DNA of 20,714 bases, from positions 1-20,714 of IMG/VR virus record IMGVR_UViG_3300034683_000522; one strand, written 5' to 3'. Shown piece after piece: positions 1 to 20,609 of the stretch. Origin of the DNA: a virus. A program made the translations under genes and the position numbers. A model generated the notes under the pieces. That model did no database searches. It was not told the origin of the DNA and saw nothing but the letters and a program-made list of their open reading frames with translations. Each line of letters opens with the position of its first letter. Position 1 is the first letter of the stretch.

Positions 1-129
1 TTTTATTTATTTTTATTTGAAAACAATCATTTGAATGCAGAAAATGATGTTTTTCAATTGTATGATAAAGGCGAAGATTATAGAATTGGGTGGATTTTCC
101 CAATATCTGTATTGGATAGCAATAAATAA
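1..129 (+). CDS. C-terminal end of an unidentified protein (partial)
   Basis: An open frame enters from the left edge in frame 1 and ends at TAA 127-129, giving the last 42 residues of a protein whose start lies outside the window. The visible tail is aromatic and acidic and ends in ISVLDSNK. The position just before the portal gene is where a terminase large subunit often sits, but the fragment shows no terminase nuclease motif and I do not recognise it. It is read as coding because the frame is open up to a stop only 12 bases before the portal start, which fits the tight packing of the rest of the window. Confidence 0.6.
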   Translation, partial: FYLFLFENNHLNAENDVFQLYDKGEDYRIGWIFPISVLDSNK

Positions 130-141
130 AGGTGGATAAAT

Positions 142-1680
142 ATGACTACAGATTTAACTTTTAAACTTTATCAGACAAATTCTAATGGGTCTAAATTTTT
201 AAGAAGACACCCAAAGTACGATGATTATAAGCCCGAATGGGATTTCTTTTTAGAGTGTTATTTAAACCCTATTGATTATGCAGATAAGCATTTGTTTAAG
301 TATTTTAAAGAAGGTGACAACGAGTTTAGAGAGCGTAAGAAAAGGGCTTATAGAGAAAACCATACAAAAAAGGTTGTTGAATTAATTAATTCTTATCTTT
401 TTAAGGCACAAGCTAAGAGAAAAATTGTTAATGATGCACTTTTTAATTTTAGAGAAAATGCTACAGGAAATTTTAAAAGTATAGAAAATTTTATGCAACA
501 TTCAGTTGCGAGATTTGCCAATCTTTTAGGAAGGGTTTACGTTGTGGTCGACAAGAAAAACCCAGAAGTTTTAACAGGAACTCATTTAGACAATATTAAG
601 GGAATGCCATATTGTTATGTTGTATTCCCCCAAGACGTTCTTGATTTGTCGTTCGATGATGTTGGGAATATTAGATGGATTTTACTTAAAGAGAGTGTTA
701 GGGATGACGAAAATCCATTTGAAAGTACTGGGGAGATAAATGAGCAATATAGATTGTGGTATGGGGGTGATTGGTGGCTTTTTGACAGCAATGGAGACGA
801 AATAGCAAGTGGCTCGACTGGGTTAGATGAAACACCAGTTATAGCGGTTGACGGGGAAGAGGGGTTAGATGTTTATAATGGAGTAAGTCTTATTAAAGAT
901 ATAGCCTATATTGACAGAGCTATATTTAATAACTGGAGTAGACTTGACGTAATTGTAAACGACCAAACGTTTTCGCAATTAATAATTCCAGCAGAAGGAA
1001 TTATTTTTACTGATACCGACGAAGATATGAAAAGCCAAATTTTAGAGATGGCTACTAATAGGGTTTTTCTATATTCTTCTCAAGCACAAGTTCCGCCTAA
1101 ATATATTTCGCCAGATGCAAGTCAAGCTCAATTTATTTTGAGTATGATAGAGAAGCAAACCAAGCAACTTTATGCTATTAACGGGTTGTCTGGCGAGGTT
1201 GCAAGTGATGTTAAAATACAAAGCGGTTTGGCTAAAACTTATGATTTTGACAAGCTTAATAAAATGCTTGCAAGTAGAGCCTCTTCTTTTGAAGTAGCAG
1301 AAAGAAAAATCTTTAGGTTGGCGTCAAAGTGGATGGGGATAGATACCAATAATTTCAATGAAATATGTGTAATAGACTATCCTGATGACTTTGATGTTAG
1401 GAGTTTGGCTGATGAAATTAGCTATGCTCAAGAAATGTCTTTGTTAAATATTTCAGAAACGTTTGAAAAGCAAATCAAGAAGAACATTGTTTATAAGGCT
1501 TTCCCAAAGCTTGATAGAGATACCCTTAAAGTTATTGAGGATGAAATTGATAATGGAGGCGGTTTTGGGGAAGTAGCCACAAGTTTTAGTAATGATAGTA
1601 ATATTTTTGAAGGGACAAAGTTTGACACTTTGGACACTATTGATAACACATTAAATCAAAAAATTAAACCAAAACAATAG
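142..1680 (+). CDS. Phage portal protein
   Basis: This 512-residue protein is the probable portal, the dodecameric ring at the capsid vertex that passes DNA and seats the head-tail connector. It starts at ATG 142 behind an AGGTGG ribosome site. The N-terminal part (about residues 1-110) has the pattern seen in DUF4055-like portals: HPKYDDY, a Trp, then a run of charged helices with YLFKAQAKRK. A beta-rich middle (about 120-230, with GRVYVVVDKK and YRLWYGGDWW) is followed by a long helical C-terminal part containing SGLAKTYDFDKLNKMLASRA (about 354-373), typical of the portal stem and wing. Length, position before scaffold and capsid, and this layout agree. The exact family (DUF4055 or SPP1 gp6-like) is my inference. 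Confidence 0.8.
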   Translation: MTTDLTFKLYQTNSNGSKFLRRHPKYDDYKPEWDFFLECYLNPIDYADKHLFKYFKEGDNEFRERKKRAYRENHTKKVVELINSYLFKAQAKRKIVNDALFNFRENATGNFKSIENFMQHSVARFANLLGRVYVVVDKKNPEVLTGTHLDNIKGMPYCYVVFPQDVLDLSFDDVGNIRWILLKESVRDDENPFESTGEINEQYRLWYGGDWWLFDSNGDEIASGSTGLDETPVIAVDGEEGLDVYNGVSLIKDIAYIDRAIFNNWSRLDVIVNDQTFSQLIIPAEGIIFTDTDEDMKSQILEMATNRVFLYSSQAQVPPKYISPDASQAQFILSMIEKQTKQLYAINGLSGEVASDVKIQSGLAKTYDFDKLNKMLASRASSFEVAERKIFRLASKWMGIDTNNFNEICVIDYPDDFDVRSLADEISYAQEMSLLNISETFEKQIKKNIVYKAFPKLDRDTLKVIEDEIDNGGGFGEVATSFSNDSNIFEGTKFDTLDTIDNTLNQKIKPKQ

Positions 1681-1692
1681 GAGGAGTATTTT

Positions 1693-2457
1693 ATGGAAAC
1701 AAAAAATGCACAGGGTGCAGGGGCTAACCTTGAAGGTGAAAATTTTGAAAAAGAGCAGGGGAAAGGCGCTCAAGAGGAACAAACAAAAGACCAGGAAAAG
1801 AAAGTTTTTTCAGAGGATTATGTAAAACAACTTCGTGAAGAAAACGCTAAATGGAGAACTAAACTTAGAGAGCTTGAGGAAAAGCTTACAACTTTGGGGG
1901 AAGTAGACCCAGAAGAGTATAAAAAGTTGAAAGAGCAACAAGCAGAGTTAGAGCGCAAAAAGCTTGAAGAAAAGGGTGAATTTCAAAAACTTAAAGAACA
2001 ACTTATTAATGAGCATAAAAGAGAGCTTGAAGCTAAAGAAACATATATCAAGCAACTTTTAAATGAGAAGCAGAGTCTTGATGACACTCTAAACACAACC
2101 ATTTTAAGTAATTCTGTCGCAATTGAAGCGGGTAAAGCCAAAGCCTATAACCCAAAAATCGTTGAAATGATAATTGCTCAGGAGGCAAAAGTTGAATTAA
2201 CAGAAGACGGTAAAAGGGTTATTAGATTTTATGACTCCAACGGAGTTTTGAGAGTTAATGGTAAAACTGGCGACCCACTTACAGTAAAAGAGAGAATTGC
2301 TGAAATGAAGGCTTCTGAAGAATTTGCTTACCTCTTTGAGGGTGGCAATGTTGGTGCTGGAAGCACAACTACCTTTAATGGTAGAAAAATTGATTTAAAT
2401 AAGCTTTCTGCCTCAGACAGAATTAGAGTTAAGAGGGAGATGGCAGGGTTATCTTAA
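1693..2457 (+). CDS. Capsid scaffolding protein
   Basis: This 254-residue, highly charged protein is the probable internal scaffold that guides procapsid assembly and then leaves. It starts at ATG 1693 behind AGGAGG, 12 bases after the portal stop. Residues 1-37 are a low-complexity Gln/Glu/Lys leader, residues about 38-130 form an almost unbroken predicted coiled coil (VKQLREENAKWRTKLRELEE and onward), and the C-terminal third is mixed. Residues about 196-225 (TVKERIAEMKASEEFAYLF, then a Gly-rich stretch) resemble the short tail segment common in phage scaffolds just upstream of the capsid gene. No protease motif is visible, so head maturation may not need cleavage, or the protease lies elsewhere. 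Assigned from composition and position. Confidence 0.78.
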   Translation: METKNAQGAGANLEGENFEKEQGKGAQEEQTKDQEKKVFSEDYVKQLREENAKWRTKLRELEEKLTTLGEVDPEEYKKLKEQQAELERKKLEEKGEFQKLKEQLINEHKRELEAKETYIKQLLNEKQSLDDTLNTTILSNSVAIEAGKAKAYNPKIVEMIIAQEAKVELTEDGKRVIRFYDSNGVLRVNGKTGDPLTVKERIAEMKASEEFAYLFEGGNVGAGSTTTFNGRKIDLNKLSASDRIRVKREMAGLS

Positions 2458-2487
2458 CAAAAAAATTAATAATGGAGGTCATCAATT

Positions 2488-3426
2488 ATGGCACAAGGAA
2501 CAACTTTTACTTTACCAAACTATACAGGTGAACTTTTTGAATTAAACCCTAACGGAGCGAGATTTTTCTCTGCTATAGGCGGTATGAATGGGCTTAGAAC
2601 TGTAAGTAATATTCAGTTTGGTATCACAACTTATGATTTGGGTAGCGACGACTCTAACCCAGACGCACTTGAAGGTCAGGACGCTCCTGATACTGCACCT
2701 GTTGCAAGAAGTGGATTATCTAACATTGTTGAGATATTCCACGAATCAGTAAATATTTCTTATTCTAAGCAGGCAAGTACTGAGAAACTTGCTACAGATG
2801 CTATCGACGGCGTGAATAACGTTGTTGATGAAAAAAGCTGGCAAGTAGAACAGAAAATTAAGAAAATTGCAAGAAGGATAAACTATCAATTCCTTAATGG
2901 TACTTATTCTTTCCCAGCAGATAATACAACTGCAAGAAAGACAAGAGGCTTATTGAGCGCTATCACTACTAACGTGGTTGTAGCAGATGGCGGGACTGGA
3001 GCACCAGACAATCTTAGCGCAAGCTATATAGAGTCACTTATCAAGAAAATTTTTGATAATGGCGGTATGGAGTATGATGATACTCTTACAATAATTACCA
3101 ATACTGCTCAGAAAATCAAGCTTGACTCTATATATGGTCAGCCAGTTCAGAGCACAACTGTTGGTGGTGTTAAACTTGAGCAAATCTACACTCCACTTTG
3201 TGAGCTTAATATTATGCTTGATAAGCATATGCCACAAGATACAATTGTTATTTCAACATTGTCTATGTGTAAGCCAGTTGGTTTATTTGTTCCTAACAAG
3301 GGCGTTTTCTTTGAAGAGCCACTTGCTAAAACTGGTGCGTCAGACAAGTCACAGCTTTATGGCGAATTTGGACTTGATTATGGCGTAGAGAGATTTCACG
3401 GTAAAATAACTAACCTTATTGGTTAA
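2488..3426 (+). CDS. Major capsid protein, DUF5309/SU10-like
   Basis: This 312-residue protein is the likely HK97-fold capsid subunit. It starts at ATG 2488 after a GGAGG site. Matches to the DUF5309/SU10-like capsid pattern are the N-terminal YTGELFELNPNGARFFSAIG, the internal FLNGTYSFPADNTTARKTRG followed by LLSAITTN (about residues 135-160), GGMEYDDTLTIITNTAQKIK (about 192-211) and a C-terminal YGEFGLDYGVERFHGKITNL. No long cleavable N-terminal delta domain is evident; the separate scaffold gene upstream would do that job. A perfect intrinsic terminator follows 4 bases after the stop, as expected for the most heavily expressed virion gene. Codon use looks slightly more GC-rich than its neighbours, consistent with high expression. 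Confidence 0.88.
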   Translation: MAQGTTFTLPNYTGELFELNPNGARFFSAIGGMNGLRTVSNIQFGITTYDLGSDDSNPDALEGQDAPDTAPVARSGLSNIVEIFHESVNISYSKQASTEKLATDAIDGVNNVVDEKSWQVEQKIKKIARRINYQFLNGTYSFPADNTTARKTRGLLSAITTNVVVADGGTGAPDNLSASYIESLIKKIFDNGGMEYDDTLTIITNTAQKIKLDSIYGQPVQSTTVGGVKLEQIYTPLCELNIMLDKHMPQDTIVISTLSMCKPVGLFVPNKGVFFEEPLAKTGASDKSQLYGEFGLDYGVERFHGKITNLIG

Positions 3427-3430
3427 TTTT

Positions 3431-3454
3431 AAGGCGGGGAAACCCGCCTTTTTT
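3431..3454 (+). terminator. Intrinsic terminator after the capsid gene
   Basis: AAGGCGGG (3431-3438) and CCCGCCTT (3443-3450) pair perfectly around a GAAA tetraloop, and the T run continues to 3454. An 8-bp GC-rich stem with a GNRA loop and a U tail is a textbook Rho-independent terminator. It lies between the capsid stop and the next gene. Because the same-strand genes continue, it probably gives partial termination that keeps capsid mRNA in excess over the connector genes. Confidence 0.88.
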
Positions 3455-3477
3455 GTAGTTTAAATATGGGAGGCAAT

Positions 3478-3822
3478 ATGAAATTTATTTGTGAAAAACA
3501 TCCTGAGTTGCAAATAGGTTTAGATATATCTTTTAAAAAAGGAGTTTACGAAACAAACGATGAGAAAAAGATTAAGTCAATTGAAAAGTTGGCGAAAGCT
3601 TTTGGAATTTCAATTTTAAAGGAAGATGGAAAAGTAAGTGAGGATAAGGGCGTAGAGAGTGTGGAGATTAAGGAAGAGGATTTGGAAGATTTGAGCTTTT
3701 TACAAAATATGTCCAAGCAAGAGATAATTGACTTTGCAGAAGCTAATTGCCAAATAACTTTAAATAAAAGTATGTCAAAAGAAAAGATGATTGAGGCAAT
3801 TGGAAATTTCAAGCAATCTTAA
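3478..3822 (+). CDS. Small capsid-adjacent protein with HeH/SAP-like C-terminus
   Basis: A 114-residue protein. An ATG also lies at 3466, but GGGAGG at 3468-3473 is well placed only for ATG 3478, so the protein begins MKFICEKHPELQ. Proteins opening with a MKF-x-C-x-x-HP-type stretch are common directly after phage capsid genes and are often called head or decoration-associated, but no function is established here. The middle (about 45-75) is Lys/Glu-rich and likely disordered. The last 40 residues (LQNMSKQEIIDFAEANCQIT, then KSMSKEKMIEAI) look like a small HeH/SAP/Rho-N helix-extended-loop-helix unit, a fold that can bind nucleic acid or act as a protein hook. Role unknown. Confidence 0.65.
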   Translation: MKFICEKHPELQIGLDISFKKGVYETNDEKKIKSIEKLAKAFGISILKEDGKVSEDKGVESVEIKEEDLEDLSFLQNMSKQEIIDFAEANCQITLNKSMSKEKMIEAIGNFKQS

Positions 3823-3837
3823 TTTTAGGAGTTTAAA

Positions 3838-4317
3838 ATGCCAGCACAAATTGATGCAACAAAGGGTGGTCAAAATTCTAATAGTTATATTACGCTTGAA
3901 GAGGCTGACCAATACTTTGATAATATGCTTTTTTTTGACGAGTGGGACTCTTTAGAGGTAGAGGATAAATTAAGGTTTATACATACTGCAATGGAGATGC
4001 TTGAAAACTTGCAAGTAAAGTTTGACAAGGCAGACCCAACACAAGCTTTAAAATTCCCTGTATCTACTTTAGAGTCAAAAGATGATGGTTGGGATGCTAT
4101 AAGAAAAGCTTTAAAAGCTCAATTAAAGCATTTGGTTTTTCATCACCAAGCAATTAGGGATGCTGAGAATTTTAAAGTTTCTGGGATGCTTAGTGAAAGT
4201 GTCTCTAAGAGTTATCAAAAATTTGCTGGCTTTAATGAACTAAATAAATATCCAACAGAGGTTAGGAATATTTTATCTTATTATGTGAATTTTGGCGTTA
4301 GAATTAAAAGGGCTTGA
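3838..4317 (+). CDS. Head-tail connector (DnaT-like adaptor family)
   Basis: This 159-residue protein belongs, by its N-terminal signature NSNSYITLEEADQYFDN (about residues 13-29), to the family that Pfam calls putative DnaT-like ssDNA-binding protein, which in phages sits in the head-tail adaptor position. The rest is helical (about 38-55 and 85-105), as in HK97 gp6/SPP1 gp15-type adaptors that form the ring under the portal. It starts at ATG 3838 behind a TTTAGGAGTTT site and ends at TGA 4315-4317, two bases before the next ATG. The name DnaT-like comes from the family label; its genomic position favours the structural role over any replication role. Confidence 0.75.
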   Translation: MPAQIDATKGGQNSNSYITLEEADQYFDNMLFFDEWDSLEVEDKLRFIHTAMEMLENLQVKFDKADPTQALKFPVSTLESKDDGWDAIRKALKAQLKHLVFHHQAIRDAENFKVSGMLSESVSKSYQKFAGFNELNKYPTEVRNILSYYVNFGVRIKRA

Positions 4318-4319
4318 TA

Positions 4320-4712
4320 ATGAGAAGTAATGCAGTTGTATTGGTTGACGTTAGAATTAGGCAACTTACTAATGATTTTATATCTGATAAAAATTTTTGC
4401 AATGGATTTAATTATAGAGGGTATATTAAGCTTGTTTCAAAAATAGTGGCAACAAATATTAACAATGTTGCAAGCCAATACAATCTTGACGAAGCAAGAA
4501 AAGCGAAATTGTCGAGACTTGCCAACACTTATTTATCTAATATTGATAAAGATGTAAGAAAAAAAATTTATAATGTAAAACGCTTTTCAATTGAAAATAA
4601 TTGTTCAATTGATATGGCACATAGAATTTTATTAAAAAATTTATTGTTAAAAAATTTCTATAAAATTAATGGGGAACTTTTTGGCGATGTACTAACCAAG
4701 TTTATTTATTAG
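4320..4712 (+). CDS. Unrecognised basic protein in the connector region
   Basis: A 130-residue protein that I do not recognise. ATG 4320 is chosen over TTG 4314 because AAAGGG at 4307-4312 is well spaced for it and because it then follows the previous stop by two bases. It is rich in Lys, Arg and Asn, mostly helical by eye, with a repeated leucine/lysine stretch near the end (RILLKNLLLKNFYK, about 104-117). There is no signal peptide, membrane segment or obvious catalytic motif. Its DNA looks even more AT-rich than its neighbours. Its place between the adaptor and the closure protein would suit a connector component, but a non-structural inserted gene is equally possible. Confidence 0.6.
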   Translation: MRSNAVVLVDVRIRQLTNDFISDKNFCNGFNYRGYIKLVSKIVATNINNVASQYNLDEARKAKLSRLANTYLSNIDKDVRKKIYNVKRFSIENNCSIDMAHRILLKNLLLKNFYKINGELFGDVLTKFIY

Positions 4713-4720
4713 GTGGGCTT

Positions 4721-5053
4721 ATGCAATATAACCATACTGGGTTTTTAGTCAAATATGAAAAAAATGATTTTGGGGATTTTATAGAAAGTTCAAAAATTCC
4801 AATACGATTTAACTTGATTGACGGAGAAACAAATAAGGCAGTCATATCTAACGGTGAGGTTGTCGTTTACGATATAAAAATTATTATGAGGGGAACTAAG
4901 AGCGCAATTAAGCTTGTTGATGGGGATTTTAAAATTGTGTTTAATGGGAAATATTATAAGCCAGTAGGAATTTACTATATATATAGCCATACTGGCAATA
5001 ATGTAAAATATATTGATATAGAGCTTGTCGATGATAAATTTAAGAAAGCTTAG
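4721..5053 (+). CDS. Probable head-closure (stopper) protein
   Basis: This 110-residue protein is likely the small beta-barrel stopper between adaptor ring and tail, in the class of SPP1 gp16 and similar head-closure proteins. The assignment rests on length, beta-rich pattern (HTGFLVKYEKNDFGDFIES at about 5-23 and NGKYYKPVGIYYIYSHTGNN at about 75-94) and position between a DnaT-like adaptor and an HK97-gp10-like protein. It starts at ATG 4721 after an AGGTGGG site, 8 bases after the previous stop. It overlaps the next gene by 23 bases. No family motif is decisive. Confidence 0.55.
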   Translation: MQYNHTGFLVKYEKNDFGDFIESSKIPIRFNLIDGETNKAVISNGEVVVYDIKIIMRGTKSAIKLVDGDFKIVFNGKYYKPVGIYYIYSHTGNNVKYIDIELVDDKFKKA

Positions 5054-5465
5054 GAAAAGTGTTTTACAATTAAAAAAGCGCTTTTCTCAGCAAAAAAGAT
5101 TTACAAATGAAATGATTGAAGACGCCATTCTTTCGGCTGCTGAATTTGTAAAGGATGAGTCAGTCAAAAGAACCCCAGTTGACGAAGGATACGTTGAAAG
5201 CGCTCACTATATTGATTCTGAGTATAATGATGATGAAATTTTTGTTGCCTATATTGCCGTTGATGAAAATTTAAGTGCTGGCGATGCAAAGGTTGGGGAC
5301 TACGCCCAATGGTTACACGAGGGAAGCTATGAGCTTGGCAAAAATTCAAGGCTAAAACAGCAATCGCAAAAGGTGAAGGTTGGGAGAAAGTTTTTGGAGA
5401 GGGCTTTCAAAGAAAACCAAACCAAAATTCAGGAGATTGTTATATCTAAGCTAAAGAGGGAATAG
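5031..5465 (+). CDS. HK97-gp10-like neck/tail-completion protein
   Basis: A 144-residue protein of the HK97 gp10-like type, found at the head-tail joint of siphophages. The family pattern is a helix with DAILSAAEFVKDESVKRTPV (about residues 31-50) followed by DEGYVESAHYIDSEYNDDEI, where related proteins carry VDTGxLRxS, and later YAQWLHEGSYELG (about 90-102), matching the usual YA-x-x-x-ExG segment, then a C-terminal helix. I start it at ATG 5031; TTG 5025 two codons earlier is less likely. No strong ribosome site is seen, and the start lies inside the preceding gene, so translation is probably coupled to it. Confidence 0.75.
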   Translation: MINLRKLRKSVLQLKKRFSQQKRFTNEMIEDAILSAAEFVKDESVKRTPVDEGYVESAHYIDSEYNDDEIFVAYIAVDENLSAGDAKVGDYAQWLHEGSYELGKNSRLKQQSQKVKVGRKFLERAFKENQTKIQEIVISKLKRE

Positions 5466-5466
5466 T

Positions 5467-5877
5467 ATGATAAGTTCTATTATTGTAGATATATTAAGCA
5501 AAGATGTTAGTCTGGGATTAATAAAAGGAGTTAACCTATTTGCTGAGAGAGCTTCTGGGAATAAATATGTTCTTGTGAGTGTTACACACTGTTCTGAGGC
5601 AATAGACGACCCTGTTGTTAAGAACGCAAGTATTAATATATTAATTTATGGATATAACGTTTCTGAGGGAATGGTTTTAGGCAGACATATTGTAAAGTCT
5701 CTTGAAAGTTTAACTCTACCATACAAATACTCTTTCGATGAAAGTGTTTATTATTCGCAATTTAGCGATGTGGTTAATTATACTTTGAAAGGTTTGAAAG
5801 TGACAATATATCCAATTTTACTCAATTATAGTGAGAGCTTTTCTATAAATTTAGAAGTAGTTTTTTCAGAAGAATAA
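5467..5877 (+). CDS. Probable tail terminator protein
   Basis: A 136-residue protein with the alpha/beta layout of tail terminators (lambda gpU and the DUF3168-like minor tail proteins), the ring that stops tube growth and joins the tail to the head. Supporting points are the length, an N-terminal amphipathic helix, two strands with KYVLVSVTHCSE (about 33-44) and ASINILIYGYNVSEG (about 54-68), and the helix GRHIVKSLESL. Its place directly before the tail tube is where this gene normally sits. ATG 5467 follows the previous stop by one base and has GAGGG at 5456-5460. The sequence itself is too divergent for a firm family call. Confidence 0.65.
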   Translation: MISSIIVDILSKDVSLGLIKGVNLFAERASGNKYVLVSVTHCSEAIDDPVVKNASINILIYGYNVSEGMVLGRHIVKSLESLTLPYKYSFDESVYYSQFSDVVNYTLKGLKVTIYPILLNYSESFSINLEVVFSEE

Positions 5878-5906
5878 TCTCGAAATTAATTTAACGGAGG
5901 TAAATA

Positions 5907-6413
5907 ATGGGAACAGCAGAAAATGTAAAATTAGGCGTTTGTAACGTAACTTTTGGTGGAACAGATTTGGGCTACACCAAAGGGGGCGTAAGTGTTTCTT
6001 ATTCAACTGAAAGTGTTGAAAAGACAGTAGACCAAGAGGATGTGCCGATAGGAGAAATTATTACTAAACAAAATTTTGAAGTAAAAGTGCCTATGGCAGA
6101 GTATGATTTAGCAAAATTTGAAACTTTGATACCAGACTCAACGCTTGTTACTGACTCAGTTGACTCAAGTAAAAAGAAGCTTGTTATTGGTGGTAGTGCA
6201 GGGACTGATTTACTTAACACTGCACAAGAATTAGTTTTAGTCCCAGTTGGCGGGAATATGAATGACTCAATCACCTTACATCACGCTATCGCAGTACCAA
6301 GTTTTGAATTTTCATTTGAAAAGGATAACGTTAGAGTTTTTGAGGTTACTTTTAAGGCTCTTAAAGGTGCTAATGGATTTGTTACAATGGGCGATGCAAC
6401 AGCAACACCTTAA
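5907..6413 (+). CDS. Major tail tube protein
   Basis: This 168-residue protein is the likely tube subunit that polymerises around the tape measure. It starts at ATG 5907 with a strong GGAGG site. The opening GTAENVKLGVCNVTFGGTDL followed by GYTKGGVSV (residues 2-30), the central QNFEVKVPMAEYDLAKFETL (about 55-74) and the C-terminal FEFSFEKDNVRVFEVTFKAL (about 133-152) match the beta-sandwich pattern of siphophage tube proteins: a strand-rich core with a helix in the middle and a VTFKAL-type last strand. It lies directly before the G/G-T chaperone genes, as tube genes normally do, and is followed by a strong RNA hairpin. Confidence 0.85.
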   Translation: MGTAENVKLGVCNVTFGGTDLGYTKGGVSVSYSTESVEKTVDQEDVPIGEIITKQNFEVKVPMAEYDLAKFETLIPDSTLVTDSVDSSKKKLVIGGSAGTDLLNTAQELVLVPVGGNMNDSITLHHAIAVPSFEFSFEKDNVRVFEVTFKALKGANGFVTMGDATATP

Positions 6414-6437
6414 TCATTAATTGAGAGAGACTACAAG

Positions 6438-6479
6438 AGGACGTCCTATTTTCTTGGTGGCAGGGGAGTCCCCGCCACC
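6438..6479 (+). other. Palindrome and strong hairpin between tail tube and chaperone genes
   Basis: AGGACGTCCT at 6438-6447 is a perfect 10-base palindrome. After it, GGTGGC (6456-6461) pairs with GCCACC (6474-6479), and after a bulged A, GGGG (6463-6466) pairs with CCCC (6470-6473) around an AGT loop. Ten GC-rich pairs in AT-rich DNA are very stable. No T run follows, so this is not a classical terminator. It may slow transcription, shield the 3' end of the tube mRNA, or mark a processing site. Confidence 0.7.
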
Positions 6480-6512
6480 GTATTAAAATTACTAAAAAAT
6501 GTTGGAGGATAA

Positions 6513-6800
6513 ATGAAGGTAGTTAATTTAAATAAATTTAAAAATGCACAACAAGTAGAGCTTGATGGTAAAACTTATAGTGTTAGAGGCTTGAAGGTTA
6601 AAGAGTATATGAGTGGGGAATTTGACGTTCTTACGTCAGAAGGAAAAACCCCAAAAGAAAATTTAGAGACAATGATTAATTTTTTACTTAAAGTTACTGA
6701 CATCCCAAAGGAAGTTTTAGAAGACCAAGAGTTGCAAGTTTTAACTGCACTTGTTGAACTTTCAAATGGAACTTACGAAGAGGGTAGCGAAAAAAAGTAA
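6513..6800 (+). CDS. Tail assembly chaperone G (unshifted product)
   Basis: A 95-residue protein in the position of lambda gpG, between tail tube and tape measure. Such proteins coat the tape measure and bring tube subunits to it. It starts at ATG 6513 with GGAGG at 6504-6508. The sequence shows a short beta unit (QVELDGKTYSVRGLKVKEYM, about 14-33) and a helical C-terminal part (NLETMINFLLKVTDIPKEVL, about 50-69), consistent with the family. It ends in Lys-Lys at a TAA that directly follows a slippery heptamer, so it should be the major product, with a minor longer form reading on into the -1 frame. I identify it by context and the frameshift rather than by strong sequence similarity. Confidence 0.82.
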   Translation: MKVVNLNKFKNAQQVELDGKTYSVRGLKVKEYMSGEFDVLTSEGKTPKENLETMINFLLKVTDIPKEVLEDQELQVLTALVELSNGTYEEGSEKK

Positions 6801-7135
6801 AAAGAGCAGGGGAAGGTTACAGGATACTTGAGATTGATTTCGGGTATTTATTTTCAGAGGTATTGCATTATTATTCAATCACATATTACGAACTTTTAGA
6901 GTTGCCAATTTATACATTTTGGGAGTTGTCGAAAAACATTCAAAGAATTAGGGGAGATGAAGATAGGCGTTTATTTGTTTTATTACAAAATATAATCGCA
7001 GGAAACCCAAAAGATTATCTTAATTCTCTTAACAAAGATGTTGGGAGCGTTTATATTATTGATGAATCAAGTGTAAGTCCAGATAAAGATGGACTTAATA
7101 GATTAAGAGCTTTATTTGGCTTGAGAGGGGGTTAG
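6513..7135 (+). CDS. Tail assembly chaperone G-T (-1 frameshift product)
   Basis: This is the frameshifted form of the preceding gene: 95 codons in the first frame, a slip of one base at 6791-6797, then 112 codons in the -1 frame to TAG 7133-7135, giving 207 residues. The T part begins VKRAGEGYRILEIDFGYLFS and continues through YYELLELPIYTFWELSKNIQ. It has no credible start of its own: the first in-frame initiator-type codon is TTG 6863, with AGAGG only two bases away, while the frame is open back to the slip site. In lambda, G-T is made at a few percent of G and its T part binds tail tube subunits; I infer the same here. Confidence 0.82.
6780..6800 (+). promoter_or_regulatory. Programmed -1 frameshift site of the dnaX type
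   Basis: The codons GAA AAA AAG TAA at 6789-6800 contain A AAA AAG (6791-6797) in the correct phase for tandem tRNA slippage, with the zero-frame stop at 6798-6800 right after it. GAGGG at 6780-6784, six bases upstream of the heptamer, resembles the internal Shine-Dalgarno-like element that stimulates dnaX frameshifting, although the spacing there is longer. I see no strong stem-loop downstream, so the upstream element and the adjacent stop are the likely stimulators. Confidence 0.85.
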
Positions 7136-7137
7136 TT

Positions 7138-10100
7138 ATGAAGTTAGGAAATTTATTTGTCGAAATTAAGGCAAGTACAGAAAATTTTAATAAAAAGATA
7201 AATGAGGCTACCTCTAAATTAGATGGGCTTTCTTCTGCGGCGAATACGACAAATAAAGCCCTATCTACTATGGGGCGCAATTTAAATAAAAACTTAATTA
7301 ACCCCCTCAAACATTCTTCTATGACTGCCATTAAATTAAACCAAAGTTTACAGTTGGCTATTGGAACTATTCATATGTTTAAAAGTGCTTTCAACTCGTC
7401 TATTGGGACTATCATTGACGCTTCTTCAAAAACCGAGCAGTATAGGGCGAGAATGTCTGCGTTTTTAGACACTAATGAAAAGGTTAATAAGACATTTGAA
7501 GATATGCAAAAGTTCGCAACAACAGTCCCAGCAACATACGAAGAGATTATGGATTCAGCAACAAGGCTTATGTATGTTATGGGCGACCAGTCAGCAAATT
7601 TTAAAGATAAGTGGATGCCACTTATTGTTGATATATCTTCTGTTACTGGGATTAAAGTAGAAGAGGTAACAGGACAGCTAATTCGTATGTGGTCTGCTGG
7701 CGCACAAAGTGCCGACCTTTTTAGAGAGAGAGGCGTTACAGCTATGCTTGGCTTTAGCGCAGGAGTAAGCTATAGCGCTCAACAAACAAGAATAAGATTA
7801 CTTGAAGCAATAGAAGGCGGTAAGCTTGGATTTATCGGGGCGTCTAAAGTTATGGCTAAAACTTGGGACGGTTTAATTTCTATGATACAAGATAAACTAT
7901 TTTATTTTAAAACTAAAATTGGCAACTCTGGCTTTTTTCTTTATATGAAGGCAATGGTCAAAAGCATAAATGATTATTTTGACGAAATGTTAGAGCAAGG
8001 AAAGTTGGATACTGTTGCAAAGACAATATCAGATACGCTTATTAATGCCTTTAAAAAGGTTTTAATATATTCTGCAAAAGTTGTAGATTTTTTCAAGACT
8101 TATAACAAATATTTTGACTCTGGGATTATAGGCTATATATTTTTTGGTAAGCTTGGCGCTGTAGTTGCTGTGTTGATAGCAAAACTTGTTGACTCTCTTT
8201 TTGGAATTGATTTAGGGAGCGCTGTTACTGACTTGGCTTCAAAGTTAATTGATAGTGTGAAGGGAGTATTTGACGGAGTAGAAGGGAAGCAGAATGATAT
8301 TATAAAAAAATACGGAATAACAACTATTCAACAATTAAAAGATGTTTATAGAGATATTGGAGAGCAAATTTCCAAGTCAAAGGCTGAGATACAAGAAGCT
8401 TATGGAATAACAGATAATGATTTTGAAGCACTTGTTCAGTATAATTCCACAGGAGTTCCAACGGTAAATAGTTCTAATGCAATTTCAAGAGTTGGTAAAC
8501 AGGGTGTAGACGCCGTTGGAAGATACGTCAAACTTGTAGATGAGCAAAAAGTCGTTCAAGGGTTAATTGATAAATATGCACAAGATAAAGAAAAATTCAA
8601 TAATAGATTAAAAGGGCTTAACGAACAGGAAAATTCAACAGAAATTCAAATTTTAAAGTGGCTTAATAAGGTTGATGAAATTGCCAAAGACTTAGAGAAA
8701 GATAAGATTAATGCTCGCGGAATAGTAGATACTTATGCAAGACTTTCTAAAGAGCAAGAAGAGGTAAATAGCCGTATTGATAGGTATATCCAAGACATAG
8801 CTAATACAAACTCTAAAATGGAGGTTGGAAATACTTATGCCTCACAATTGTTAACAATTGCAAAAAAGTTCCATAACTTAATGGACGAATTTAATGAAAG
8901 CTTTATTCGTCCAGATGATGCAAAAGCGATTGAATTATATGGGGCAAAGTTAGATAGCTATAGAGAACAGTATGATGCAATTTTAAATAAATTGCTTGGT
9001 ATAAAAAATCAGGCAAAACAGGTTATAGATAATCTCGTTAATGATGTTAGTAAAGAATACGACGATAAAATGAAAGATATAGATGTAAAACTTACTTCTC
9101 TTGGTTTGAGTGAGTCTGATGCTATTAGTCAAGAGGGCGAAAATTTAAAACAATCTTATAAAGATTTGTTTGCCCAAATAAGAGATATATTAATAAATGA
9201 GTTTAAATATACTACCTCCCAAGTTGATTTAATTGTTAATTCCTCACTTAAAAATATTAGCAGAAAGATAGATGAGTATGTTGGCAAACAGCAAGAGTTG
9301 CTTGCTAAAACAAAGATTAAAGAGGCGAAGGAAACGTCTGTTGAGTATAGAGCCAAATCTGAAAGTTTTAAAATAGAGTATGGAGACTCAAAATCTGTGA
9401 AAGATTTGCAAAACAGGCTTAAAAAAGATGTTGGCGGGCAATTTTCACTTAACACTTTTGATGTTGACTTAAATACTAAGCTGTTCGACATTGCAGAAAA
9501 GTATTCAAAGACAAGAAAGGCACTTGAGGATTTAATAGAAAAATTCCCAGAGCTTGGGGAGGCTTTACAGCAAGCTCAAATGGCGGAAATAAAGTATGCC
9601 CAAGATACCACCCTTACAAATGCTATGGAAAAAAGACTTGCAAAGGTTCAGGCTACTTTTGAAGCTTTTCACGATATTTTTTCTACAATTGGGGAGCAAA
9701 TAGGGCAAGGATTGGCTGATGGAATAGAAAATGGTTTTGATTTTGGGGCTTTTTTTGCCAATTTAGCCAAAATGATGAGAGCTATGGCAATACAAAAAAC
9801 AGTATCTCTTATTTTTGAAGGTACATATCAACAGATTATGGCGACTATCTATAGAACTTTGGCTATTTCTAATGCTTTGGCAAACCCAGCTTTGGCGGCA
9901 GCTTATTGGCAGGCTTCTATTGGGGCGCAAGTTGCTTCAAGTGGAGCTTTTGCTGGAGCAGCAGTTATGGGGAGTCTTGCGGGGGGATTAATCGCAGGTA
10001 TGGCTCACGATGGTATGAAGAGCATCCCAGAAGATGGCACTTGGCTACTTCAAAAGGGCGAGAGAGTTGTCGACAGACAAACAAATAAAGATTTAACTAA

Positions 10101-18838: not shown

Positions 18839-19129
18839 GTGACAATTACAATAAATCAAGACTTAATATTTATCGCTATATTTTTATCTATTTGTTTAGA
18901 CGTATTTTTTAAGCCATTTATTAAAGTTAAAAATGAAAGCATTAAACGAGTCATAACAAGAGTTATTTTATTAATTTTGTCAACTATAGTCGTTTACTTA
19001 ACAGACCCAAAAGAGCTAATTACTCAGTCAATTGCACTATCTGTTTTGTCAATGATTTTTTATGACGTTTCTGGATATAAAATATTAAAAAATGCCGTAA
19101 AAAAAAGGTTGGGGGACTCTTTAACCTAA
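18839..19129 (+). CDS. Holin
   Basis: A 96-residue membrane protein. ATG 18827 lacks a ribosome site, while GGAGG at 18829-18833 is five bases before GTG 18839 in the same frame, so I start at GTG. Three hydrophobic segments are visible: about 9-27 (LIFIAIFLSICLDVFF), 37-54 (RVILLILSTIVVYL) and 61-78 (ITQSIALSVLSMIFYDVSGY), with a basic C-terminal tail (KNAVKKR). Size, three helices, basic tail and position before spanin and lysozyme genes fit a class I holin, which opens the inner membrane at a set time so that the endolysin escapes. No sequence family is claimed. Confidence 0.75.
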   Translation: MTITINQDLIFIAIFLSICLDVFFKPFIKVKNESIKRVITRVILLILSTIVVYLTDPKELITQSIALSVLSMIFYDVSGYKILKNAVKKRLGDSLT

Positions 19130-19133
19130 TTTA

Positions 19134-19163
19134 CGACAGAAGTCGCCCGCCTCTATAGGCGGG
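19134..19163 (+). other. Two adjacent stem-loops between holin and spanin genes
   Basis: CGAC (19134-19137) pairs with GTCG (19142-19145) around AGAA, and directly after it CCCGCCT (19146-19152) pairs with AGGCGGG (19157-19163) around CTAT. The two helices abut and could stack. No T run follows on either strand, so this is not a normal terminator. It lies 37 bases before the spanin ATG and may affect mRNA stability or timing of lysis gene expression. Confidence 0.7.
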
Positions 19164-19200
19164 GGTAGTTCACTTAAATTGGTATTATAGTGAGGGTATT

Positions 19201-19740
19201 ATGTTTGGAACTAAATATATTTGGGGCTTTATATATAAGGGGATTGCTTTCTTTGTTGGTATATTTTCTTTATTTGCTTTTGGCTATTTAAAGGGGAGGA
19301 AAGCGCAGGATGGAAGGCACGAAAAAGAGGAGTTGGAAAAGCAAGTTAAACAACAAGAAAAAGTGATTAACAAACAAATAGAAAACGCCAGCAAAAAGGA
19401 AAAGATTGGGGAAAATATTAAAGCTCAAAATCAAAAAGAAAAAGAGTTAATAGAGAAAGTAAAAGAAAAGAAAAAATATAATATGGGGCAATGGGTAATT
19501 TTTGCTTTCATAATAACTTGTACTATAAGCTGTACAAGAACAAAAATTGAATATGTTGAAACACCCTGCTTAAAGCCAATAGTTTTAGAAAGACCAAGCT
19601 TAAACAATGTTGAAATATATCCAGATATGATTTTAGATAATGACACTTTCAATAAAATAATAGAAAACGACATTAAATTAAAAAGTTTAATAAAAAAATA
19701 TGAAATGATGATTAATATTATTAACGAGGGGGGACAATGA
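19201..19740 (+). CDS. Single-frame spanin-like protein: inner-membrane and lipoprotein-like parts in one ORF
   Basis: A 179-residue ORF from ATG 19201, behind GAGGG. Residues 7-30 are a membrane helix, 35-92 a Lys/Glu/Gln coiled coil: the build of an inner-membrane spanin (Rz-like). From Met95 it changes to an outer-membrane spanin (Rz1-like): a hydrophobic stretch WVIFAFIITCTIS, Cys111 in a weak lipobox (Thr-Ile-Ser-Cys), and a Pro-bearing tail with TPCLKPIVLERPSLN, as o-spanins have. Normally these are two genes in different frames. Here they are in frame. A slip or one extra base in the A6 run at 19471-19476 would end the first part at TAA 19479-19481, one base before ATG 19483. It may be a true fusion, a slippage gene, or a sequence error. 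Confidence 0.7.
   Translation: MFGTKYIWGFIYKGIAFFVGIFSLFAFGYLKGRKAQDGRHEKEELEKQVKQQEKVINKQIENASKKEKIGENIKAQNQKEKELIEKVKEKKKYNMGQWVIFAFIITCTISCTRTKIEYVETPCLKPIVLERPSLNNVEIYPDMILDNDTFNKIIENDIKLKSLIKKYEMMINIINEGGQ
19483..19740 (+). CDS. Possible separate o-spanin lipoprotein (internal start)
   Basis: If translation begins at internal ATG 19483, the product is an 85-residue prelipoprotein with a 16-residue signal and a mature part of 69 residues starting at Cys111 of the longer ORF. The case for it is the lipoprotein-like signal and o-spanin-type tail. The case against is that the N-terminus (Met-Gly-Gln-Trp) lacks the usual basic residues, which instead precede it in the longer frame (KEKKK), and that the upstream ribosome site is poor. 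Reinitiation after a stop at 19479-19481 could overcome the latter. Confidence 0.4.
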   Translation: MGQWVIFAFIITCTISCTRTKIEYVETPCLKPIVLERPSLNNVEIYPDMILDNDTFNKIIENDIKLKSLIKKYEMMINIINEGGQ

Positions 19741-20150
19741 GTAAAATTAAAGAACTCCTCATAAGGCACGAGGGGCTAAGGTTAAAACCATATTTTTGCA
19801 CCTCTGGGAAATTGACAATAGGGGTTGGGCGTAATCTTGAAGATAAAGGAATAACTGAAAGTGAGGCGCTGTATCTCCTTGATAATGATATAAAAGAAAC
19901 AATAAAGTATTTAGAAACCTTTGCTTTTTGGCATAATTTGAACACTCCAAGAAGGGACGCACTCATTGATTTTTGTTTTAATGTAGGCTTTGGAACTTTT
20001 ATCAAATTCAAAAAGATGATACAGGCTCTTGAGTATGGGGATTATGAAAAAGCCTCAGAAGAGCTTTTAGATAGCAAGTATGCAGAGCAAGTTGGAGAAA
20101 GAGCAAGAGAGTTAGCCCATATTATTAGGCACGGAGAGTATTATCAATAG
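19737..20150 (+). CDS. Endolysin, T4-type lysozyme (GH24)
   Basis: A 137-residue muramidase that cleaves the MurNAc-GlcNAc bond of peptidoglycan. It starts at ATG 19737 within ATGA, overlapping the spanin stop by four bases. The catalytic region is RHEGLRLKPYFCTSGKLTIG: Glu12, Cys21 and Thr27 sit at exactly the spacings of T4 lysozyme Glu11, Asp20 and Thr26, with Cys in place of Asp. The structural Gly residues and a GRNL turn follow. Later helices include RRDALIDFCFNVGFGTFIKF (about 76-95), as in the family. There is no signal peptide or SAR helix, so release depends on the holin. It is slightly shorter than T4 lysozyme (164 residues), as many phage versions are. Confidence 0.93.
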   Translation: MSKIKELLIRHEGLRLKPYFCTSGKLTIGVGRNLEDKGITESEALYLLDNDIKETIKYLETFAFWHNLNTPRRDALIDFCFNVGFGTFIKFKKMIQALEYGDYEKASEELLDSKYAEQVGERARELAHIIRHGEYYQ

Positions 20151-20159
20151 AGGGGAGAT

Positions 20160-20609
20160 ATGAAAGTTATATTTTACAAGGCAAAATATGGTGATTTATT
20201 AAATAAAATAATTGCTCTTTGGACTCTTGGAAAATATTCACATTGTGAACTTGTTGTTAAAGAAACTGAGCTTTTATATATAACTTACACGTCTCATATT
20301 GCTTATGGCGGGGTTGTTTGCAGGACAATATCAAAAACTTCTGATGAGTGGGATGTTATAGATTTAAGTAAATTTGATTTAAACAAAGAAAAGGCTGTTA
20401 ATTTTTGTAAAAGCCAAATTGGGAAGGGGTATGATTTAAAAGCAATTTTTCTAACCTTTGTCATACCATTTAAAAAGCAAGACAGGAAAAAGTGGTTTTG
20501 TAGTGAATTTGTCACTGAGGCACTAAAGGCAAGTGGACTTAATATTGATAAGAAGTCTTTTAGAATACATCCAAACAAACTTTATAAGATTTTAAGAGAA
20601 ATAGTATGA
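20160..20609 (+). CDS. YiiX-like permuted NlpC/P60 cysteine hydrolase
   Basis: A 149-residue protein of the YiiX/YebB type, a circularly permuted papain-like fold in which the catalytic His comes before the Cys. His28 and Glu30 lie in KYSHCELVV; Cys114 lies in KWFCSEFVTEALKAS (111-125), the usual WFCSE motif. In between, GGVVCRTISKTSDEWDVIDL and GKGYDLKAIF match the phage members of the family, and RIHPNKLYKIL ends it. ATG 20160 follows AGGGGAG, nine bases after the lysozyme stop. Placement in the lysis cassette suggests cell-envelope peptides as substrate, but family members have varied substrates, including lipids, so the reaction is not certain. Confidence 0.85.
   Translation: MKVIFYKAKYGDLLNKIIALWTLGKYSHCELVVKETELLYITYTSHIAYGGVVCRTISKTSDEWDVIDLSKFDLNKEKAVNFCKSQIGKGYDLKAIFLTFVIPFKKQDRKKWFCSEFVTEALKASGLNIDKKSFRIHPNKLYKILREIV

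Follow-up and report, generated by a model that had tools for sequence, protein, structure and literature searches.

The window analysed here, which is an entire IMG/VR virus record (20,714 bases), appears to carry a two-component spanin whose i-spanin-like and o-spanin-like parts lie, as recorded, in one and the same reading frame (Table 1). Judged by sequence content, the assignment to two-component spanins is well supported. The best reading of the locus, to which we give a probability of about 0.4, is a real same-frame pair that is made as two proteins, with the o-spanin started internally at ATG 19483; a one-base indel in the record comes close behind. In the sections used here, a survey of 677 phage genomes reports 182 embedded, 228 overlapped and 118 separated spanin pairs together with 58 u-spanins, puts the o-spanin of embedded and overlapped pairs in the +1 or -1 frame, and describes no same-frame i/o pair (PMC6139136). 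If true, the same-frame pair would be a further layout beyond these four, and possibly an intermediate in spanin gene evolution produced by the i-spanin stop loss that the survey authors imagine as an evolutionary step (PMC6139136, same sections). Such a pair would be missed by gene callers, which see one ordinary protein.

Table 1. Features of the spanin locus and its neighbors (window coordinates)
Feature	Position	Strand	Basis or remark
Small membrane protein	18839..19129	+	GTG start with strong Shine-Dalgarno preferred over ATG 18827
Single open frame through i-spanin-like and o-spanin-like parts	19201..19740	+	179 aa
i-spanin-like part	19201..19482	+	Residues 1-94; PHROG 214 'Rz-like spanin' match, residues 1-93
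Transmembrane helix 1	19240..19290	+	Residues 14-30; hydropathy; within predicted helix 4-91
Long charged Lys/Glu/Gln helix, ending KEKKK	19306..19476	+	Residues 36-92; composition, AlphaFold single-sequence model
A6 run at the join	19471..19476	+	Codons AAA AAA in AAG AAA AAA TAT AAT ATG
TAA stop, -1 frame	19479..19481	+	One base before ATG 19483; reads ATA TAA after the run
o-spanin-like part	19483..19740	+	Met95 to Gln179; own ATG 19483
Lipoprotein-like signal MGQWVIFAFIITCTISC, candidate lipidated Cys111	19483..19533	+	Hydropathy, sequence; Cys111 codon TGT 19531-19533
TAA stop, +1 frame	19496..19498	+	Read one base forward after the A6 run
Cys123, candidate disulfide Cys	19567..19569	+	12 residues after Cys111
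Endolysin (Phage_lysozyme)	19737..20150	+	Pfam PF00959 E=1.3e-17; PHROG 7 E=1.4e-23

Two spanin-like parts in one open frame

The frame begins at ATG 19201, which has a strong Shine-Dalgarno sequence (-6.6 kcal/mol), and runs to TGA at 19738-19740 with no stop between the two parts. Its product is ordered as a membrane helix, a Lys/Glu/Gln-rich helix, KEKKK, a second hydrophobic segment with TISC, and a tail. An earlier note on this DNA had described a single frame with Cys111, an o-spanin ATG at 19483 and an A6 run at 19471-19476, all of which, coordinates included, are confirmed on the sequence; the frame has 179 residues, and the ATG is Met95. The order that it gave (membrane helix, coiled coil, KEKKK, lipoprotein-like signal) is also seen by hydropathy and composition, the second element as a long charged helix, with two small deviations of the lipoprotein-like signal described below. 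The combination of two hydrophobic segments (residues 14-30 and 95-111) with a lipobox-like end of the second occurs in no other ORF of the approximately 1 Mb of loci fetched. An AlphaFold single-sequence model (mean pLDDT 65) has a helix at residues 4-91 and, at low confidence, breaks it at residues 92-94, which is exactly the i/o join. A fold comparison from this model was dropped because the model is too weak, and an Rfam search gave no match.

Residues 1-93 have the N-terminal transmembrane domain and the periplasmic domain, often a coiled coil, that characterize i-spanins. They match PHROG 214, 'Rz-like spanin' (E=6.3e-7), and more weakly PHROG 739 and 8821. Composition bias inflates the E-values of such matches, and long, apparently unrelated membrane-plus-coil ORFs match PHROG 214 with E down to ~5e-6. 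The match of this part is above that background and its position in the cassette agrees, and the predicted i-spanin assignment still stands. A class-wide survey of the PHROG 214 base rate was too noisy for use, returning mostly long membrane-plus-coil ORFs. The locus resembles lambda Rz/Rz1 (PHROG 214) in its N-terminal membrane helix and long charged helix with a lipoprotein-like protein downstream, in a lysis cassette that adjoins the endolysin, and in an extra Cys, here a candidate, near the lipidated one. It differs in that the lambda o-spanin is embedded in the +1 frame, whereas here there is one frame and no stop.

The o-spanin-like part (residues 95-179) has no family match. Its hydrophobic segment ends in TISC, which departs at position -3 from the lipobox consensus [LVI][ASTVI][GAS]C (PMC6139136, same sections), and a signal peptide beginning at Met95 would lack Lys/Arg ahead of the hydrophobic core. 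In 507 of 528 spanin pairs, one or more periplasmic Cys residues are available for an intermolecular disulfide, and in lambda Rz1 C29 lies 9 residues after the lipid Cys20 (PMC6139136, same sections); Cys123 supplies a candidate of this kind. The remaining tail is modeled by AlphaFold as a proline-containing stretch of low confidence and then a C-terminal helix. The only relative of this part is a viral contig (L001) that begins at residue 126 and has 82% nucleotide identity, with 8 synonymous and 2 non-synonymous codon changes over residues 126-178 (dN 0.028, dS 0.463). Because dN/dS is only ~0.06 in this comparison, the part is maintained as a protein.

An unrelated two-helix lysis or membrane protein that is not a spanin is the least probable reading. 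It could be argued from the missing family match of the o-part, from the imperfect lipobox, and from the weak matches of PHROG 214 to other membrane-plus-coil proteins. However, the endolysin adjoins, the i-spanin match exceeds background, the o-part is under purifying selection, and its Cys-containing start and C-terminal helix resemble those of a Helicobacter prophage o-spanin. This o-spanin candidate is also short, and it has a Cys after a hydrophobic start without Lys/Arg and a second Cys further on.

Proposed production of two proteins from one frame

If the best reading holds, the host of the phage would be Gram-negative and the locus would function as a two-component spanin. Ribosomes that start at 19201 would make the i-spanin with the o-spanin sequence as a C-terminal extension, its first helix sitting in the inner membrane and its charged helix in the periplasm. 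The o-spanin would be made separately from ATG 19483, possibly aided by the A-rich, unstructured leader, and would be anchored in the outer membrane as a putative lipoprotein. As two proteins, the i- and o-spanin would then come into contact in the periplasm and, once the wall has been cut by the endolysin, may fuse or disrupt the outer membrane.

The match of the i-part to Rz-like spanins, the position in a lysis cassette, and an endolysin start that overlaps the o-spanin stop (ATGA) all favor this reading, as do the helix break of the low-confidence model at the join and the selection on the o-part. In related lysis loci, moreover, a separate o-spanin gene follows or overlaps the i-spanin gene. 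A simple scan of related endolysin loci yields five clear i/o pairs; in each of them the two genes overlap and the o-spanin lies in phase +1. Campylobacter phages have overlapped or separated pairs (PMC7692668). As here, the i- and o-spanin adjoin a related lysozyme in Helicobacter prophage BK070151 (L029) and in two Desulfobulbaceae loci (L033 and L052), but there the i-spanin has its own stop, and the o-spanin, read in a different frame, has a Shine-Dalgarno sequence of its own. The same-frame arrangement is found in no relative, which counts against the best reading.

Near the join, ATG 19483 is the only ATG, GTG or TTG at which a separate o-spanin could start, and a search of the other frames found no upstream start open to the o-spanin. 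This codon lacks a Shine-Dalgarno sequence (+0.2 kcal/mol), whereas almost every gene start of the window scores -6 or better and the six o-spanins used for comparison range from -3.8 to -7.5 kcal/mol. The missing Shine-Dalgarno sequence argues against an internal start, as does the signal peptide without Lys/Arg. The surroundings of the codon argue in its favor, with no predicted structure in the region from -25 to +20, as in only 1.7% of window ATGs, and a leader that is 75% A. This setting fits either an A-rich open-leader start or coupling to an i-spanin stop that is absent from the record.

Topology bears on the choice between one protein and two. With helix 1 inserted N-in, helix 2 would pass from the periplasm to the cytoplasm, which is the wrong orientation for processing of Cys111 by Lgt and LspA, and a hydrophobic helix that remains uncut is unable to reach the outer membrane. 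For these reasons, two proteins are more plausible. The second helix is also a difficulty for the best reading, in that it would draw the C-terminus of the full-length i-spanin back to the inner membrane.

A single polypeptide that forms a covalent i-o spanin, with its order reversed relative to T1 gp11-type u-spanins, is unlikely on these topological grounds, even though the open frame itself, the missing Shine-Dalgarno sequence at ATG 19483, and the positive charges of KEKKK right before the second hydrophobic segment would all agree with it. As in T1 gp11, both membrane signals could sit in one polypeptide, but the u-spanins of the survey are defined by the opposite order, an N-terminal lipoprotein signal and a C-terminal transmembrane domain (PMC6139136, same sections). 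It seems quite improbable that the 179-residue chain is itself the working protein, whether as a reversed covalent spanin or as a precursor from which cleavage after insertion frees a lipidated o-spanin. If it is, then both parts of an outer-membrane disruptor would come from one frame.

The A6 run and the accuracy of the record

The run at the join is one of 21 A6 runs in the window and one of its 59 homopolymers of 6 or more. The ATA TAA that the earlier note saw in the -1 frame after the run is present, with its stop at 19479-19481. If programmed slippage, ribosomal or transcriptional, occurred at the A6 run, it would give a 93-residue i-spanin ending at 19481, with re-initiation at ATG 19483. 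Besides this directly adjacent stop, a canonical -1 site (A AAA AAG) in the tail chaperone gene of this phage is consistent with such a mechanism. At the join, however, the in-frame phase is G AAA AAA T (19470-19477), and there is no slippery heptamer X XXY YYZ with perfect re-pairing. Six bases are also fewer than the approximately nine at which selection against slippage-prone runs is evident in most bacterial genomes (PMC1088944), and A7 and A8 runs are tolerated elsewhere in the phage. The coincidence of the -1 stop is weak because a stop within one sense codon in that frame follows 25% of codons in the genes of this AT-rich phage by chance, and the neat stop was discarded as evidence. With a short run, a non-canonical phase and a commonplace stop, slippage is very doubtful. 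Of the four options that the earlier note left open, internal start and indel remain, while slippage gains little and a functional fusion is disfavored by topology.

A one-base error of assembly or sequencing at the A run, or a sampled frameshift variant, is the strongest competitor, tentative as it is. Normally there would be two separate genes, an i-spanin that ends beside the o-spanin ATG and an o-spanin translated by coupling, and the locus would be an ordinary spanin pair. Stops of both shifted frames lie near ATG 19483, and coupling to a nearby stop would account for its missing Shine-Dalgarno sequence. All related pairs found, like the 528 pairs of the survey (PMC6139136, same sections), have their o-spanin in a different frame, and a fusion makes little sense topologically. 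Against an indel, 57% of window positions are expected to have a tidy stop in one or both shifted frames, and all other genes of the window are intact.

Two independent assemblies also speak against an indel. A contig of the same phage species from another sample (L027) covers window positions 24-9201, with the join outside, at 98-99.6% identity. Over these 9.2 kb, all 25 homopolymers of at least 6 bases and all 82 of at least 5 have the same length in both contigs, and all ten gaps fall in a diverged stretch at 6155-6278. Because the run lengths agree, a simple homopolymer error is unlikely, with the control region being 24-9201 rather than the join itself. The best reading depends on the A6 count, which we infer from this control outside the join to be probably correct. 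The stretch at 6155-6278 is a short, strongly diverged patch in a gene region that is otherwise ~98% identical, and either local recombination or a variable tail-protein segment could explain it.

Searches of viral contigs with the whole ORF, the o-part and the i-part returned only L001, which starts inside the o-part. A DNA pattern in which the A run could have 2-9 bases gave nine matches, none of them a relative of the ORF, and no relative of the join was found with the whole ORF among genome contigs or by blastn and tblastn against phages. Scans with the likely holin, the endolysin, P0004 and the major capsid protein recovered L027, L025 and endolysin loci, and there was no related spanin in any of them. 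Another candidate, L028, turned out to be an unrelated actinobacterial-type prophage. The earlier note had proposed that relatives would reveal whether the fusion is conserved; conservation of the o-part is borne out by L001, and L001 and L027 both lack the join.

Lysis cassette and wider genome

The window has tailed-phage structural genes followed by the lysis cassette. The small membrane protein upstream of the spanin frame has no family match in a PHROG/Pfam profile search and, by position only, is likely the holin. The gene after the endolysin (20160-20609) matches PHROG 1128 (E=7.5e-37) and has a weak match to the YiiX/C92 papain-like amidase family, which suggests a possible second lytic or cell-wall enzyme.

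A tail assembly chaperone pair precedes the tape measure gene at 6513-7135. Its first frame ends GAA AAA AAG TAA, with the canonical -1 slippery site at 6791-6797, and the -1 frame is open to 7135. The genome is mosaic (2488-3426 and 142-1680): the capsid protein has its nearest counterparts in actinobacterial phages, with 44% identity to those of Mycobacterium and Propionibacterium, the portal has them in SSU5-like enterobacterial phages, and the lysis genes are of Gram-negative type. In the contig of a relative (L143; IMGVR_UViG_3300031485_000130, 5000-23455), the lysis cassette is followed by genes for replication and repair, which by eye include a helicase, primase, DNA polymerase III alpha, RecA, and SbcCD-like and PhoH-like genes. 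Because that contig continues past the cassette, the phage genome is probably larger than the window.

Between the likely holin and spanin genes there is a G+C-rich hairpin, GCCCGCCTCTATAGGCGGGGGTAGTTCAC, at 19143-19175, which we take to resemble the end hairpin of an IS200/IS605-type element. At window position 4713, L027 has ~90 extra bases (L027:4691-4781) that are absent from the window and end in GAAGCGAGAATCTCGTCACTTTAGTGGTGGGAGGTTCA, presumably again like an IS200/IS605 end.
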